Source of the DNA: Chloroflexota bacterium
GTDB lineage: Bacteria; Chloroflexota; Anaerolineae; Promineifilales; Promineifilaceae
Direction: 5' to 3'
NCBI GenBank assembly: GCA_018004935.1
Contig: JAGNBF010000056.1
Location: 1-43,922 of the forward strand
Length of the DNA: 43,922 nucleotides
Position numbers and translations under genes: made by a program. Shown piece by piece: positions 7,791 through 18,523 of this stretch (positions are counted from its first letter, which is position 1; every line of letters starts with the position of its first letter). Below the pieces are notes generated by a model that ran no database searches, had not been told where the DNA came from, and worked only from the letters and a program-made list of their open reading frames with translations.

Positions 7791-8264
7791 CTAATAGGCA
7801 AAAGCAATTTGATTGGTCAAGGTATCAACGAACTCTTCTAATTGCTCACCCATTTGCGGGCGATAAGTTGGACGGGCTGTAATAATCTGAGCCACATCAG
7901 TCACCAGATTACCCCCACTTTCCGTGACGACCACGCGGCCGCGGCCCCGGTTCACATTTTCCAACAGAGATTTAATACGGGCATCATGGCGTAAAACTTC
8001 AGCATTGCGGCCGCGGCTGGGCAAAATCAGTACATACTCATCCGCAGGATCAAATGGCCGATCCGCCAACGCATAATCTGTTTTGAGCGCCACACCCTGG
8101 CAACTGGTTACCAATTTATTAAACAGACTGATGCTCTTAATAGATAAACCGGCCAGACGAAATTTATGCAAAAAATACACAACCTCCCATTCATCAAAAC
8201 CATCACCAATGAGGATGTAGGTGTGCGGCCGCTTCTTACGTCCATTACCATTCGTGGTTGCCAT
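7791..8264 (-). CDS. DJ-1/PfpI-like (class I amidotransferase fold) protein without the nucleophilic Cys
   Basis: A 157-residue protein starting at the ATG complementary to 8262-8264; GGAG and GAGG precede this ATG, whereas the longer frame back to 8354 has no such support. The pattern resembles the DJ-1/PfpI fold: a first strand YILIGDGFDEWE (about 16-27), a VALKTDYALAD segment, and EYVLILPSRGR. In DJ-1/PfpI proteins the nucleophile elbow carries Cys. Here the corresponding VVVTESGGNL (about 111-120) has Glu-Ser instead, so protease or glyoxalase activity is unlikely and a sensing or binding role is more plausible. The family call is a pattern match and moderately secure. Three GCGGCCGC octamers lie in it. 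The gene is followed downstream by the family A hairpins. Confidence 0.6.
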   Translation of the reverse strand: MATTNGNGRKKRPHTYILIGDGFDEWEVVYFLHKFRLAGLSIKSISLFNKLVTSCQGVALKTDYALADRPFDPADEYVLILPSRGRNAEVLRHDARIKSLLENVNRGRGRVVVTESGGNLVTDVAQIITARPTYRPQMGEQLEEFVDTLTNQIAFAY

Positions 8265-8388: not shown

Positions 8389-8607
8389 TTAATTACCACT
8401 ACATGTGCCACCAGCGATTTGACATCCACCCGCAATTGCTTGCGCCCAATCTACATCCCCTTGATCTCCATCCATGACCCAGGCCCCCAGGCGATTGTCT
8501 GCCCCATAATGGGTATCCACAGCCTCCACCAGAGCAAAGGTCGCTAAAGAAAACAGTAGCGCTAACAAAAGGGATACCCGAACGATTTGCAGTTTGACAG
8601 ATTTCAT
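8389..8607 (-). CDS. Small secreted Gly/Cys peptide
   Basis: A 72-residue ORF. The ATG complementary to 8605-8607 is chosen because GGAGG lies seven bases upstream. Basic residues and a hydrophobic core (about 11-28) form a Sec-type signal peptide, with possible cleavage after VEA at residue 29. The predicted mature peptide of about 43 residues is acidic, then ends in a Gly-rich tail with Cys62 and Cys69 inside two AGG-C/AGGTC-type units. No family was recognised. It is divergent from the NB-ARC gene. The intervening region carries five regularly spaced heptamers pointing at this gene, followed by a TTTAAT -10-like box (8687-8692, minus strand). It could be a signalling or surface peptide; no modification enzyme is nearby. 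Confidence 0.6.
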   Translation of the reverse strand: MKSVKLQIVRVSLLLALLFSLATFALVEAVDTHYGADNRLGAWVMDGDQGDVDWAQAIAGGCQIAGGTCSGN

Positions 8608-8701: not shown

Positions 8702-8751
8702 CTGTAATGATCTGTAAACTGCCTTGAAAGTAACTTGAAAACACCTTGAAA
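8702..8751 (-). promoter_or_regulatory. Five-heptamer activator array (TTTCAAG-type) before the small peptide gene
   Basis: On the minus strand, reading toward the peptide gene, heptamers TTTCAAG, TTTCAAG, TTTCAAG, TTTACAG and ATTACAG start at 8751, 8740, 8729, 8718 and 8708, with spacings of 11, 11, 11 and 10 bp. A TTTAAT box follows nine bases later at 8692-8687. Direct heptamers with one-helical-turn periodicity are the usual sites of OmpR/PhoB/SARP winged-helix proteins. The distal heptamer overlaps the ATG of the divergent NB-ARC gene, so occupancy could also repress that gene. The same array occurs at 11809-11857. Confidence 0.7.
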
Positions 8752-10187
8752 TGAACCAAAATCAAGAATTTGTTAAGACCAATCAAGTCCAAGATGCCCT
8801 ACGCCTCTGGCATGGGGGTGAAGTAGAACATTGGCCGTTAGGTCATTTACGGTTGGGGTTGCGCTTGCGGCCGCATCAAGAAGATTACCGTTCCCTGGCT
8901 GAAAGCGGCCCGGCGGCACAAAACCGGGCTACACTAAACCACGCGCTAGAATTCCTGCGCGGAACCTCGCTAGAAGCTGAAGAATTACTGCGTAACCGGT
9001 ACGAACACCGTACAGATGTGATGTCCCTGGCCAACACCCTCAATCTGAGCGAAGATAGCATCTACTACCGTCAACGTCAGGCCATTCACCAACTAACCGA
9101 CATCATTAACCAGCTAGAACAAGAAGCCCGTTCATCCTGGCAAGAGCGAATGCTCAATCGCCTGGAATTACCAACCTACACCCACTTAGTGGGTATCGAA
9201 AAGGTGCAAAGTCAACTTCTTGAAGCCTTAAAAGAACAACAAGAATCGTTTATCATCTCCTTAGAAGGGTTAGGCGGGTTAGGCAAAACCACCCTGGCCG
9301 ATGCCACGGTGCGTCTCTTGATAGAACAACAAAAATTTGATGAATTTGCCTGGGTAACAGCCAAACAAACCCATCTTTCCATGTTGGGGCGACTACAGGT
9401 AGAAAGCGGCAAACCGGCCCTTACGTTTCCGATGCTTCTGAACAAAGTCTCTCATCAATTCGAGCTAGACGAATATAATCCACCGACACAATTGCAACGG
9501 CAACGCCTGGTGCAACAATTCCTGCGCGAACGCGAATGTCTGGTTATCATTGACAATTTGGAAACAGTCACAGATTATCGCACCCTACTCCCAGAATTAC
9601 GCAAATGGCAAAACCCCAGTAAGTTCATTCTCACCTCGCGCTATCGTCTACTGGATGAACCAGGGGTTTACTCAATCGCCTTACAAGAATTAACTCGTAC
9701 CGCCGCCTTTCAACTCATCCGGCACGAAGGCAAACGCACTGGTGTCAACGCCCTCGCTCAGGCTTCAGATGAGGAACTCGATCCTATTTATCATGTTGTA
9801 GGCGGTAATCCTATGGCGCTGAAACTCATTGTTGGACAACTACGTTTTCATTCCTTATCCCGTGTTCTCAATCGGTTCAGCCAACATCGAGATCCCCAAC
9901 AAAGCAATGACCTTTTTGATTACATCTATCAAGAAATATGGAATACCCTGTCCGATGACAGCAAAGTCATTTTGTTGGCTCTGTCCCAGGCGGGCGAATC
10001 AGGTTTCATCTTTGACCACCTGGTAGAGATTGCGGCGCTCTCCGAAACCATCATTGAGACAAACCTGGAACAACTCATCTTGCTTTCCCTGGTCGAGCCG
10101 GGGGGAACACTTCTCGAAAAACGGTACCGCCTGCACCGCCTCACCGATTCCTTTGTCCAACGACTCCTAGGAACTGTCCAAGAATAA
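8751..10187 (+). CDS. NB-ARC (STAND) ATPase with sigma-like HTH N-terminus
   Basis: Signal-transducing ATPase with numerous domains. Residues about 55-125 resemble a sigma-70 region 4-like helix-turn-helix (SLANTLNLSEDSIYYRQRQA), followed by an NB-ARC core: P-loop GLGGLGKTT at 173-181, Walker B LVIIDNLE at 264-271, RNBS-B-like ILTSRYRLL at 293-301 and a GLPL-type GNPMAL at 352-357. A winged-helix segment ends the protein (YRLHRLTDSFV). There is no C-terminal repeat sensor; a TPR protein that looks like the missing half is the next gene at 10480. The product is probably a switch that oligomerises and contacts DNA or RNA polymerase, but the output is unknown. The ATG at 8751 has no clear Shine-Dalgarno and overlaps the last heptamer of the operator array. 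Confidence 0.85.
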   Translation: MNQNQEFVKTNQVQDALRLWHGGEVEHWPLGHLRLGLRLRPHQEDYRSLAESGPAAQNRATLNHALEFLRGTSLEAEELLRNRYEHRTDVMSLANTLNLSEDSIYYRQRQAIHQLTDIINQLEQEARSSWQERMLNRLELPTYTHLVGIEKVQSQLLEALKEQQESFIISLEGLGGLGKTTLADATVRLLIEQQKFDEFAWVTAKQTHLSMLGRLQVESGKPALTFPMLLNKVSHQFELDEYNPPTQLQRQRLVQQFLRERECLVIIDNLETVTDYRTLLPELRKWQNPSKFILTSRYRLLDEPGVYSIALQELTRTAAFQLIRHEGKRTGVNALAQASDEELDPIYHVVGGNPMALKLIVGQLRFHSLSRVLNRFSQHRDPQQSNDLFDYIYQEIWNTLSDDSKVILLALSQAGESGFIFDHLVEIAALSETIIETNLEQLILLSLVEPGGTLLEKRYRLHRLTDSFVQRLLGTVQE

Positions 10188-10199
10188 CTTTCCGCGTTG

Positions 10200-10410
10200 T
10201 TTCTAGTAGTGCGACAGACAAGATTTGTCGGTTGGAAGGTGGTGGCACGGTCAGGAGACCGGCCACAGCTATTCGACGGAATAAGTTTGTTGAACTACTA
10301 GAGACTCACTTAGTAATCGTCCAAGAATAAGTTCCGCGCAGACCTGACAGGTTTCCGAAAACCTGTCAGGTCTAAACCGGGAAGTTATTTTTAGATGTTC
10401 ACTTAGGGGC
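10200..10410. repeat. Repeat families D and B between the NB-ARC and TPR genes
   Basis: The gap starts with an inverted pair CTAGTAG/CTACTAG (about 10202-10208 and 10296-10302) enclosing a family D unit (10241-10269, GGTGGCACGG...GGCCACAGC). Family B follows at about 10309-10406. Its core is a 15-bp stem, AGACCTGACAGGTTT at 10340-10354 pairing with 10359-10373, flanked by GTAATCGTCCAAGAATAAGTT and GGGAAGTTATTTTTAGATG. Family B recurs at 24847-24937 and 28327-28420; family D at 20092-20121, 28443-28473, 32076-32103 and 41600-41625. No coding capacity is seen. Confidence 0.85.
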
Positions 10411-10479
10411 AGTAAAAGATAAGTTCCGTCAAGACCCAAACGGTCAAGTTATTTAATTTCCATTCCTTAGGATGGTGAT

Positions 10480-11721
10480 ATGAGTACCGGGCACGAAACA
10501 AAGCCTGTCAAACAATGGCAAATGATTCTCAAGCGTCAGGCCACCGCCAATGTGCACCGCTGGCTCCATCTCCTAAATAGCAAAGAAGATCCAACCCTCT
10601 TTTTGGCGCAAAACTACGATAATATTCTGCGTTCTTTAGAAACAATCCTGCCCCATGAAGAGCAACTTAACCTCACTTTAGAACTCATCAAAGCTATCTC
10701 CCCCTTCATTTTTAACTTTGCGGACTGGGACCGGTGGCTGACTTATCTGGACAAAGCCCTTGCCCAAACGATTCATTGTCAACAAATTGAAGATCAGGCT
10801 TATCTTTTGATAGAAATGGGGGCAATTCACCAGGCCCGGGGCGAATGGCAAAAGGCGTTAGACCATTTTGAGCAATCTGAGAGGCTGTATCTGCAACTCA
10901 ACTTGTCGGTAAAGTATGCCAGGGCATTGAACCGTCGGGGTGTCATGTTATGTAGTCTAGGGCAAATAGGTGAGAGCCTGAAATTATGTCAACAGGCGCT
11001 AAGTCTGGCTGAAGAATTTAAAGCTGAGGATATTGTGGCCGAAGCCCGCTGGAATCTCACCGCCGTTTACCAAAAAGCCCATTTATGGGAGAAGGCCCTC
11101 TTAACAGCTCGCGAAGCGATTGTCCATTATCAACAAAATGCTTCTAATGCTTCACGGCATACATTACAGCGGCTCATCATCATTTCTTTAAGCAAATTGG
11201 GGCGCAGTGAGGAGACGGCCACACAAGCCCAACTATTGCTTGATGAATTAACACAGGCTGGTGAAATTCAAAAGTTGGCGGCATTGCAGGTAGATTTAGG
11301 GGTCATTGCTTTTGAGCAAAATAACTACCGCGTAGCCGAAAAACATTGGTACGAAGCCTTACAACTTTATTCGCAAATTCAAAACCCGCACGACCAGGCC
11401 GTTTTGCATAATAATTTAGGGTATCTCTATACTAAACTTGAAGAGTGGGAAACGGCTGAGGTCATGCTTTTGCAGGCGATACGTATCTATGCAGAATTGG
11501 GTGACACTTACAACCAGGTGGACACGATGGACAACCTGGCCGAGTTGTATGAGGCCCAAAATAAAGGGGAGGCCCGCGGCCGCGTTCTGGCACAAGCCAT
11601 CCATTTGCTAGAACAGGTGGATAGGTCGCCCACCCCCTATTACCAGGAATTATTTGCCAAATTTACAGGGCAATACCATCAATTGTGTGAAACCATAACT
11701 ACTAAACCTCTCGAGGGCTGA
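10480..11721 (+). CDS. TPR protein, probable detached sensor half of the NB-ARC protein
   Basis: A 413-residue soluble protein, nearly all helical tetratricopeptide repeats. Its start (AQNYDNILRSLETIL ... DWDRWLTYLDKAL) resembles the first repeats that follow the winged helix in full-length NB-ARC/SARP-type STAND proteins; repeats such as ALDHFEQSERLYLQL, ALNRRGVMLCSLGQ and VLHNNLGYLYTKLEEWETAEVML continue to about residue 375. The ATG at 10480 follows AGGATGG. The NB-ARC gene upstream lacks any repeat domain, so the two products may assemble into one switch, with this protein binding the ligand or partner. A 292-bp gap filled with palindromic repeats separates them. A GCGGCCGC octamer near the 3' end encodes Gly-Arg. 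Confidence 0.85.
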   Translation: MSTGHETKPVKQWQMILKRQATANVHRWLHLLNSKEDPTLFLAQNYDNILRSLETILPHEEQLNLTLELIKAISPFIFNFADWDRWLTYLDKALAQTIHCQQIEDQAYLLIEMGAIHQARGEWQKALDHFEQSERLYLQLNLSVKYARALNRRGVMLCSLGQIGESLKLCQQALSLAEEFKAEDIVAEARWNLTAVYQKAHLWEKALLTAREAIVHYQQNASNASRHTLQRLIIISLSKLGRSEETATQAQLLLDELTQAGEIQKLAALQVDLGVIAFEQNNYRVAEKHWYEALQLYSQIQNPHDQAVLHNNLGYLYTKLEEWETAEVMLLQAIRIYAELGDTYNQVDTMDNLAELYEAQNKGEARGRVLAQAIHLLEQVDRSPTPYYQELFAKFTGQYHQLCETITTKPLEG

Positions 11722-11757
11722 GCTTGTCGAAGCCCGTTTTGCCTTCGACAAGCTCAG
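11718..11757 (+). terminator. CTGAGCTTGTCGAAG hairpin after the TPR gene
   Basis: CTGAGCTTGTCGAAG (11718-11732) pairs perfectly with CTTCGACAAGCTCAG (11743-11757). The stem overlaps the TGA stop codon of the TPR gene. It has the form of the REP-like palindrome found after genes in many bacteria. A role in 3' end protection or termination is inferred. Confidence 0.75.
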
Positions 11758-11808
11758 GCAACAGGCTTAGCAGTTACGTGAAACCCATAAATAATCCCCC
11801 TCTATCCC

Positions 11809-11857
11809 TTTAAAGTTCGTTTCAAGGTAATTTAAAGGTTTTTCAAGGCCATTCAAG
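11809..11857 (+). promoter_or_regulatory. Five-heptamer activator array before the histidine kinase gene
   Basis: Heptamers TTTAAAG, TTTCAAG, TTTAAAG, TTTCAAG and ATTCAAG start at 11809, 11820, 11831, 11841 and 11851, with spacings of 11, 11, 10 and 10 bp. They match the array at 8702-8751 in sequence, number and spacing. A -10-like TATCAT lies at 11870-11875, seven bases before the ATG at 11882, so the transcript may be leaderless. The pattern fits an OmpR/PhoB/SARP-type activator shared by the two loci. Confidence 0.7.
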
Positions 11858-11881
11858 TTGGCTATATGCTATCATTTGCCC

Positions 11882-12634
11882 ATGATTCATTCACTTTCAA
11901 CGAACGGGCATAAAATGGAATCAGACGAGGTTTTTGATCTGTCAATCAGTACAATTATCCATGACCTAAATAATTTATTGACCACTGTTATTAGTCATGC
12001 TACCCTGGCTTTAGCCAAAACAGAAGATTGTCAGGAATCTCACCCCCATTTGGAACGAACCGTACAGGCGGCCAAATACGCGGCCGCGCTCTCCCGCCAG
12101 CTTAATCTCTACGCCAAAGAATCGCTCCACCAGGATGATAATACTGACCTCAATAACCTTGTCACCGAAATTACAGAACTACTTCGGCCCGTTTTTTTAC
12201 GGAATGTAACCGTACATTTAGACCTCGGTTACGGCCTGCCCTTTATTAAAGCCCCCAAACTCAAGATTCAACAAATTCTAATGAACCTGCTCATTAATGC
12301 GGCAGAGGCCATTCCCCCAGCCGGTGGGGCCATTACGCTCCAAACCGGGTGGGAAAAAATAAAAACACCCTTTAATAATGAAACGGGGTCCCGTTATCGT
12401 TTTGCACCGCAACCGGGTGAGTACCTCTTCTTACGGGTGGCAGACACGGGCGTAGGAATGAACGAAAATATTCTGGATGGTTTACTGATGCCCTATTTCA
12501 CCACCAAACCCCGCGGCCGCGGCCTGGGGCTGATAAGTGTTACAAAAACATTAGACGAATGGGGCGGCGGTCTCACCGTCACCAGTACGCCAGGCTTTGG
12601 CTCCGTCTTTACAATCTTTCTACCGATGGTTTAG
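11882..12634 (+). CDS. Sensorless histidine kinase (HisKA plus HATPase)
   Basis: Cytoplasmic sensor kinase of 250 residues made only of the catalytic core. The phosphoacceptor motif IIHDLNNLLT places the His at residue 27. The ATP-binding domain shows the N-box MNLLINAAEAI (Asn139), G1 box VADTGVGM (188-190 is DTG), F-box PYFTTKP and G2 box GRGLGL (212-217). There is no transmembrane or PAS domain, so input must come from a partner. No response regulator is nearby. The ATG at 11882 is preferred over TTG at 11858, which lies inside the heptamer array; ATG 11915 is also possible. The upstream heptamer array suggests control by an OmpR-like regulator. Confidence 0.9.
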   Translation: MIHSLSTNGHKMESDEVFDLSISTIIHDLNNLLTTVISHATLALAKTEDCQESHPHLERTVQAAKYAAALSRQLNLYAKESLHQDDNTDLNNLVTEITELLRPVFLRNVTVHLDLGYGLPFIKAPKLKIQQILMNLLINAAEAIPPAGGAITLQTGWEKIKTPFNNETGSRYRFAPQPGEYLFLRVADTGVGMNENILDGLLMPYFTTKPRGRGLGLISVTKTLDEWGGGLTVTSTPGFGSVFTIFLPMV

Positions 12635-17399: not shown

Positions 17400-17767
17400 T
17401 AAGTGAAACAAAGGGAGTGCCTTGAGACCCCCACCCTCAGGGCGCATGGTGGGGAAAAATCCAGCAGGCAATCGTCCCAGGTACACCTGTATACTATGTG
17501 ACTTATCCATACGAAAAGAGGAAATTTTCTTACGTAATCTAATCGTTAAGGTAATTCTCTTAAAATTATTTACTATTGTTGCCCCTGGGCATTGATTAGG
17601 AAAACCACATCCTTTTCCATCCCAGCCCAAGTTTCAGCCCATCAATTCTGATAATTCCCTGCAGGTATCATGTCCGTTTTGTTACGTGGTATTTTGCCGA
17701 CCGATTCCCCGCTGTTTGGGAATTGTTTTGAGGAGAAGTGGTGTCCAATCACAGGAGGAGGTTCACG
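17400..17767. other. Gap before the sigma-like gene
   Basis: No gene is recognised. CCCCACC (17429-17435) pairs with GGTGGGG (17448-17454) shortly after the haloperoxidase-like stop. The rest is AT-richer sequence without a clear repeat family or promoter. A strong Shine-Dalgarno AGGAGG precedes the ATG at 17768. Confidence 0.5.
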
Positions 17768-18523
17768 ATGGATTGGAGCATCCCCGCATTACAGAAGCTA
17801 TTAGAAGTAGCCATACAAAAATTAGCTCAGGAGAGAGGCGAATCCTTTGCCAATGCTATCAGAGAGATTATCTGGTTAAACCTGGAACATGGTCGCGTAC
17901 AAAAATATCTGCAATACAATCCTGACCATACCACTGACGGTTATGTCAACCATGTCGTCGTTATTTTTGATAAGTTGGAGCCATATATCCGCTGTATGCG
18001 CGAAGGGGATGACACGATCTGGCTTGTGCTGTATCCCAAATTGCAACAGTGGGTTTATAACTACCTGGTGAAAAAGAAATTTCATCGGGGACACGACACT
18101 CAGGAACTAGCAACAACTTATGCTGGCGAACTTGCTTGTACTCTCATACAGGCTCATTATCCATATGATGTTGAAGAGTTTGATGCCTGGGCTTATCAAA
18201 CTCTTAAAAATGTCTGCTCCAAGAACATGCGGCACGCTACAAGGCACCGCCTTATTCCTGACAGCCAACTCGACCCCCTGGAAACACCAACCCACGAAGA
18301 AAATATTGCTCACTTAATGAAATTGCCAGGGCTAGAGGGTTTAATCGGTGAGCGTCTGGACTTTGAGCAAGCGTTGAATAAACTGAAGCCCAAAGAACGG
18401 CAGGTGATTATGGGTTTGCTCCAAGGGTTAACACCCCAAGAACTCGCAAAACTCCTTGGGACAACGGACGCGAATGTGTATAAAATTAAGCACGACGCAA
18501 TAAAAAAGTTGCGTAAACCATAA
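17768..18523 (+). CDS. Sigma-70-like (ECF-type) transcription factor
   Basis: A 251-residue cytoplasmic protein. The ATG at 17768 is chosen for the AGGAGG seven to twelve bases upstream; the longer frame from 17738 lacks one. The middle (about residues 130-175, DAWAYQTLKNVCSKNMRH) resembles sigma region 2, and the C-terminus (about 203-251, LNKLKPKERQVIMGLLQGLTP followed by an ELAKLLGTTDANVYKIKHDAI helix-turn-helix) is a clear region 4. The first 80 residues are unassigned and could be a regulatory domain. It probably directs RNA polymerase to a small set of promoters. No anti-sigma factor is evident, although the unknown gene at 19119 lies downstream on the same strand. Confidence 0.8.
   Translation: MDWSIPALQKLLEVAIQKLAQERGESFANAIREIIWLNLEHGRVQKYLQYNPDHTTDGYVNHVVVIFDKLEPYIRCMREGDDTIWLVLYPKLQQWVYNYLVKKKFHRGHDTQELATTYAGELACTLIQAHYPYDVEEFDAWAYQTLKNVCSKNMRHATRHRLIPDSQLDPLETPTHEENIAHLMKLPGLEGLIGERLDFEQALNKLKPKERQVIMGLLQGLTPQELAKLLGTTDANVYKIKHDAIKKLRKP

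Follow-up and report, generated by a model that had tools for sequence, protein, structure and literature searches.

Two matching arrays of short direct repeats lie on a 43,922-nucleotide stretch of a Chloroflexota genome (assembly GCA_018004935.1, contig JAGNBF010000056.1; this whole stretch is called the window) and raise the question of which protein reads them. An earlier interpretation made from the DNA letters, here called the sequence-only reading, had assigned them to a winged-helix activator of the OmpR/PhoB/SARP kind that controls a small regulon. Our analysis points to another reader. The gene between the arrays encodes an NB-ARC protein for which they likely serve as operators. This protein would be a STAND activator resembling AfsR and MalT with a predicted DNA-binding domain of the sigma-region-4 type.

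Five heptamers are found in each array, with positions (Table 1) and spacings as first read. On the minus strand, from 8751 to 8702, array 1 consists of TTTCAAG three times, TTTACAG and ATTACAG (steps of 11, 11, 11 and 10 bp), while array 2, on the plus strand from 11809 to 11857, consists of TTTAAAG, TTTCAAG, TTTAAAG, TTTCAAG and ATTCAAG (steps of 11, 11, 10 and 10 bp). Array 1 and the NB-ARC gene share base 8751, the last one in the first heptamer and the A of the start codon. Both arrays far exceed chance: over 35 positions array 1 has five mismatches to TTTCAAG and array 2 three, whereas the best five-copy chains of 60 windows shuffled by a Markov model had 11-14. We scanned the source genome (8.0 Mb, 96.6% complete) with the degenerate trimer pattern WTTNNAG-N3/4-WTTNNAG-N3/4-WTTNNAG, using the reversed pattern as control. 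Matches were confined to arrays 1 and 2 rather than occurring at random throughout the genome, and the control matched once. The statement that the window holds no third array can thus be extended, at degenerate-trimer stringency, to the rest of the 8.0-Mb genome. The observation that both arrays end in ATTxxAG holds in the window and is not a constant feature across relatives.

The NB-ARC protein was searched against 59 related genomes, yielding clear orthologs at 52-62% identity; the named relatives are Chloroflexota metagenome-assembled genomes, several of them labelled Ardenticatenaceae or Anaerolineae. Gene order is conserved: array 1 faces a small peptide gene followed by a DJ-1/PfpI-like gene, and in the opposite direction the NB-ARC gene is followed by a TPR gene and then by array 2, which faces genes for a histidine kinase and/or a CheY-like receiver. 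In the orthologous loci the two arrays are again found in these positions and face the same genes, so that the pattern is conserved in relatives. Their heptamers (TTTGCAG, TTTGTAG, TTTATAG, TTTAGAG, TTTCAAG) mostly keep WTT..AG at steps of 10-11 bp, and their number can be lower or higher than the five of the window. A four-heptamer pattern was found in 10 of the 52 genomes of the family; when reversed as a control, it matched in none. Strict trimer arrays were detected in 22 of 24 genomes with an NB-ARC ortholog compared with 8 of 28 without (Fisher p = 4e-6), and in one of these eight, G324, the array precedes a histidine kinase gene at a broken contig. When a relaxed heptamer pattern was applied to 298 genomes of the class, matches outside the family were mostly scattered chance matches such as the ATTGGAG tandem repeats of G213. 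Arrays in G113 and G207 (L092, L093), with no NB-ARC, TPR or histidine kinase homolog within the stretch read, were set aside.

The geometry of the arrays bears out what had been proposed earlier, namely helical-turn spacing and a location before the -10 box that is typical of activators. A -10-like box follows each array, as previously noted: TATCAT, part of the extended -10 box TGCTATCAT, lies 12 bp past array 2 and TAATCT 11 bp past the last heptamer of array 1. Among 21 loci, ten have an extended -10 (TGnTAnnnT) at a distance of exactly 21 bp from where array 2 ends, and eight have it at 10-12 bp. One or the other register is thus seen in 18/21 loci, with a chance of about 1% per locus, an approximate figure from a search in which the length of the heptamer chain could vary. 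For array 1, the 11-bp distance recurs in L077, L256, L257 and L259 and is less clear in other loci. Since the promoter-proximal heptamers occupy the -35 location ahead of a good extended -10 at fixed register, with no obvious -35, array 2 probably acts to activate transcription. Based on the position of TGCTATCAT, the predicted start falls near the kinase ATG at 11882, and the histidine kinase mRNA may be leaderless with its start coinciding with this ATG.

The protein encoded between the arrays contains an NB-ARC domain (Pfam E-value 2.1e-16, 60.4 bits compared with a cutoff of 23.5) with a conserved P-loop, GLGGLGKTTL, and its full-length model matches the NB-ARC of NRC1 with a TM-score of 0.71 by target length, and also CED-4, Apaf-1 and resistosomes. 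Residues 1-151 were modelled with 49 relatives (pLDDT 89). In this N-terminal model a helix-turn-helix is seen whose second helix begins at residue 101. The model matches sigma region 4 (3hug) with a TM-score of 0.77 by target length, a root-mean-square deviation of 2.1 and a probability of 0.99, the same match being weak by other scores (Foldseek E-value 0.8, VIA Z 7.3). Further structural matches are SigD4, SigD and phage Q21, and the protein has a weak sequence match to sigma70-ECF (E = 0.015). Because many sigma4 chains agree, the model confidence is good and weak sequence hints exist, the N-terminal domain is predicted to fold like sigma region 4.

The predicted recognition helix varies together with the heptamer. 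In genus g10, each of the six genomes has both arrays, as far as its contig covers them, built of TTTGNAC or TTTGGAC (class TTTNNAC) and not of TTTNNAG, and no TTTNNAG trimer arrays were found in these six genomes. Each of the 18 TTTNNAG orthologs read has Glu at residue 101, and each of the six TTTNNAC orthologs has Arg there. Fixed differences between the two groups amount to 8 of 478 columns, two of which (101 and 105) fall within the predicted recognition helix. Glu to Arg together with G to C is the exchange that would be expected if residue 101 contacts C, then G, on the opposite strand. This switch occurred once, so it is suggestive of the NB-ARC protein as reader and not proof. In addition, the two arrays change jointly, being more similar within than between genomes (permutation p = 0.0003 for the non-redundant set, 0.005 without g10), which argues for one shared reader.

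A comparable relationship extends to NB-ARC paralogs, which at 30-36% identity are often divergent to a DJ-1-like gene. Arrays with 10-11-bp periodicity and a score of at least 16 occur in 10 of 27 gaps between paralog and DJ-1-like gene compared with 16 of 201 controls, and upstream arrays scoring at least 15 in 17/53 paralogs compared with 10/119 intergenic controls (Mann-Whitney p = 2.5e-5). The de novo periodicity score used here misses weak ortholog arrays (L070, L073, L082), so a low score does not equal absence. When paralogs are ordered by tree, the motif tracks both clade and predicted helix, from CGCAC/GCCC and GATAG/GAGAG to TTTRYAG and TTTGNAC, with CGCAC/GCCC motifs pairing with xDQVxRxQR helices and GATAG/GAGAG motifs with EPSIYRWQ-type helices.

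In its presumed mode of action, the NB-ARC protein would be most like AfsR and MalT. AfsR, one of the large SARPs of Streptomyces (SARP-NOD-TPR), binds direct repeats 11 bp apart beside the -10 and overlaps the -35 region; it uses an OmpR-like winged helix with BTAD on two repeats, the 3' repeat lying 8 bp from the -10 (PMC10936776). Common to both systems are an NB-ARC-type NOD with TPR, an N-terminal DNA-binding domain and direct repeats one turn apart near the -10. The window protein differs by its predicted sigma4-like domain, its five repeats and a TPR half encoded by a separate gene, and while the 10-11 bp spacing agrees, the distance from array to -10 is 10-12 or 21 bp here and 8 bp in AfsR. 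As Pfam gave no Trans_reg_C match in the whole NB-ARC protein or in residues 1-146 taken by themselves, BTAD reached only 15.2 bits (E-value 0.029; cutoff 22.1) and the model is sigma4-like, we rejected a SARP identity. MalT, a STAND activator of E. coli, has a TPR-type sensor, oligomerises and binds cooperatively at several promoter sites (PMC6468293, PMC10427625). The STAND switch with a TPR-type sensor and the several promoter sites are shared features. MalT differs in site sequence and arrangement and in its LuxR-type helix-turn-helix, which is C-terminal and part of one polypeptide. A DNA-binding domain of the MalT/LAL type was rejected because neither the NB-ARC nor the TPR protein gave a match to this LuxR domain (GerE).

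The Q protein of phage 21 is sigma4-like, and two copies of it bind a direct-repeat site (PMC6606751). Together with sigma region 4 it provides the best structural matches of the predicted DNA-binding domain, although Q21 works in antitermination on two 6-bp repeats and without a STAND NTPase. Sigma factors likewise lack a STAND NTPase and possess region 2, whereas no Sigma70_r2 match was found in the NB-ARC protein, where the NB-ARC domain directly follows the helix-turn-helix; a sigma factor identity was rejected on the missing region 2 match. OmpR/PhoB response regulators use tandem direct repeats at about 11 bp and combine a receiver with a winged helix. Neither domain was found in the NB-ARC protein, and an OmpR-type identity was rejected for this reason. 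Apaf-1, CED-4 and plant NLRs share the NB-ARC fold, with a death or resistosome domain in place of the DNA-binding output domain predicted here. The literature searched contained no description of this Chloroflexota module or of a sigma4 domain in any STAND or NB-ARC regulator, and an eLife 2020 survey of NTP-dependent conflict systems leaves sigma and PfpI unmentioned. As far as the literature searched shows, the predicted DNA-binding part would be new for the STAND/NB-ARC class.

We propose a STAND switch in which the sigma-region-4-like domain (approximately residues 54-123) precedes an NB-ARC NTPase that includes its winged-helix part, and to which the neighbouring gene contributes the TPR sensor. 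A signal received by the TPR half would lead to opening and oligomerisation of the NB-ARC domains, and the oligomer would place a row of sigma4-like domains on the heptamers, one per helical turn and on one face of the DNA. Once bound, it would recruit or stabilise RNA polymerase, as suggested by the promoter layout outlined above. The proposed targets are the operon of peptide and DJ-1-like genes for array 1 and the histidine kinase and receiver genes for array 2. We infer direct binding, oligomerisation on DNA, activation, a sensor role for the TPR protein and a signalling role for the peptide.

Several points weigh against this proposal. The N-terminal model gives weak Foldseek E-values, 0.21 at best, and a VIA Z of about 8 is within the range of common helical arrangements. 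The Glu/Arg switch represents a single evolutionary event, and the effect could also lie with further residues that became fixed on that branch. Further, the last heptamer of g10 array 1 remains TTTCAAG in most genomes (L083, L256, L258, L259), perhaps reflecting a different contact near the -35 position. Two genomes with an NB-ARC ortholog have no strict arrays, an array is detectable in only about a third of the paralogs, and the paralog motifs were assigned by eye on a tree-ordered table. The evidence for an activator role is purely positional.

An alternative would be an unlinked OmpR/PhoB-type response regulator or SARP that binds the arrays, with the NB-ARC gene as a neighbour or target. 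Regulators of this kind are common in these genomes, and a sensor-poor histidine kinase is among the targets. SARPs are also known to leave a footprint of direct heptamers with 11-bp spacing before the -10 box (AfsR, PMC10936776). However, no Trans_reg_C gene is present among the Pfam-scanned window genes (the search did not reach beyond these to the rest of the genome), and the heptamer class tracks the recognition helix of the NB-ARC protein in orthologs and broadly in paralogs, whose own, differing arrays an unlinked regulator does not explain. We therefore consider this alternative improbable. The sequence-only reading is apt in its comparison with SARPs as far as mode of action is concerned, because AfsR is likewise a STAND protein acting on 11-bp direct repeats, and probably wrong about the protein: the candidate between the arrays carries a predicted sigma-region-4-like domain instead of a winged helix, and its predicted helix co-varies with the heptamer.

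It is also conceivable that the NB-ARC protein does bind the arrays and acts as a repressor or only regulates itself, given that array 1 touches its start codon, so that occupancy could silence its own gene, and that paralog arrays sit in divergent promoter regions. This is unlikely, as the fixed distance between array 2 and the -10 (21 or 10-12 bp), the heptamers at -35 and the strong extended -10 fit an activator, and array 2 is not located beside the NB-ARC promoter. That the arrays are chance or selfish repeats has a negligible probability. Short direct repeats are common and relaxed patterns scatter in unrelated genomes of the class, but two fixed places are conserved, the -10 register is fixed, the arrays change jointly and the four-heptamer pattern is found in 10 genomes with no control match. 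For orthologous loci we regard this explanation as refuted. Operators of an NB-ARC activator thus remain our preferred explanation.

The target genes agree with the small regulon originally claimed, comprising a secreted peptide and a histidine kinase lacking a recognisable sensor domain (Table 1). In the ortholog loci examined, array 1 is followed by peptide equivalents of 51-69 residues with a hydrophobic N-terminus. Two cysteines near the C-terminus are present in 14 of 15 aligned sequences, G290 (L077) having none, and this fast-evolving family (window, L069-L085, L256-L259) has no Pfam or NCBIfam match. In the DJ-1/PfpI-like protein the nucleophile cysteine is not conserved. Similar proteins without this cysteine are recurrent divergent partners of the NB-ARC genes of the phylum (L132, L060, L142 and other paralog loci) and may perhaps have a ligand-binding or partner role. 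Array 2 is followed by both histidine kinase and CheY-like receiver in several relatives, by the kinase only in the window and by the receiver only in g10 and G302; in G301 a receiver is preceded by an array on another contig. Additional arrays ahead of large putative secreted proteins, known from their translations (L086, L088 in G290, L089, L090 in G167 and L125 in G316), suggest a wider regulon in some genomes.

Table 1. Coordinates of the arrays, genes and promoter elements in the window
Feature	Position	Strand	Details
Operator array 1	8702..8751	minus	heptamers at 8745-8751, 8734-8740, 8723-8729, 8712-8718, 8702-8708
Operator array 2	11809..11857	plus	heptamers at 11809-11815, 11820-11826, 11831-11837, 11841-11847, 11851-11857
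NB-ARC (STAND/AP-ATPase) protein, proposed array reader	8751..10187	plus	N-terminal sigma-region-4-like domain (predicted)
N-terminal part of predicted recognition helix	9051..9086	plus	residues 101-112, EDSIYYRQRQAI
TPR protein, probable sensor half of STAND protein	10480..11721	plus	TPR_12, E-value 7.8e-24
-10-like box TAATCT	8690-8685	minus	
Extended -10 box TGCTATCAT	11867..11875	plus	
Small secreted/membrane peptide gene	8389..8607	minus	72 residues, GGAGG ribosome-binding site, N-terminal hydrophobic segment, C-terminal C-x6-C
DJ-1/PfpI-like gene	7791..8264	minus	next gene after peptide
Histidine kinase, no recognisable sensor domain	11882..12634	plus	weak HisKA match, HATPase_c

In every ortholog examined whose contig reaches far enough, TPR and NB-ARC are two separate, adjacent genes. 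In most relatives the two genes overlap or nearly so; the 292-bp gap of the window (10188-10479) holds an inverted repeat of the GACCTGACAGGTTT...AAACCTGTCAGGTC type. Another inverted repeat, GAGCTTGTCGAAG...CTTCGACAAGCTC, is located at 11712-11766 between the TPR gene and array 2, and similar sequences are present in G316 loci (L076, L124). Elsewhere in the window, a 261-residue protein (17738-18523, plus strand) matches sigma-70 region 4 at its C-terminus and has no match to region 2.

Multicellular and filamentous bacteria encode NB-ARC/STAND proteins in large numbers, and a role in immunity or cell death is discussed for many of them. Here, one NB-ARC branch is tied to specific operators and target genes by sequence alone, resulting in a testable prediction that involves one residue and one base, namely E101R paired with a G-to-C change at position 7 of the heptamer. 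More tentatively, the locus could be a self-contained cell-cell or envelope circuit in which the level of an array-controlled, secreted two-cysteine peptide is sensed by an NLR-like switch binding the same array, with the DJ-1-like and TPR proteins as relays, and one of many such Chloroflexota modules, each with its own operator code. If true, a bacterial relative of NLRs that reads DNA through a sigma4-type domain would here control a feedback loop based on a peptide. The tree-ordered paralogs with their differing heptamers suggest a family of regulators whose operator code might be readable from genomes, which would assign function to many unannotated NB-ARC genes of the Chloroflexota, a phylum with few genetic tools.

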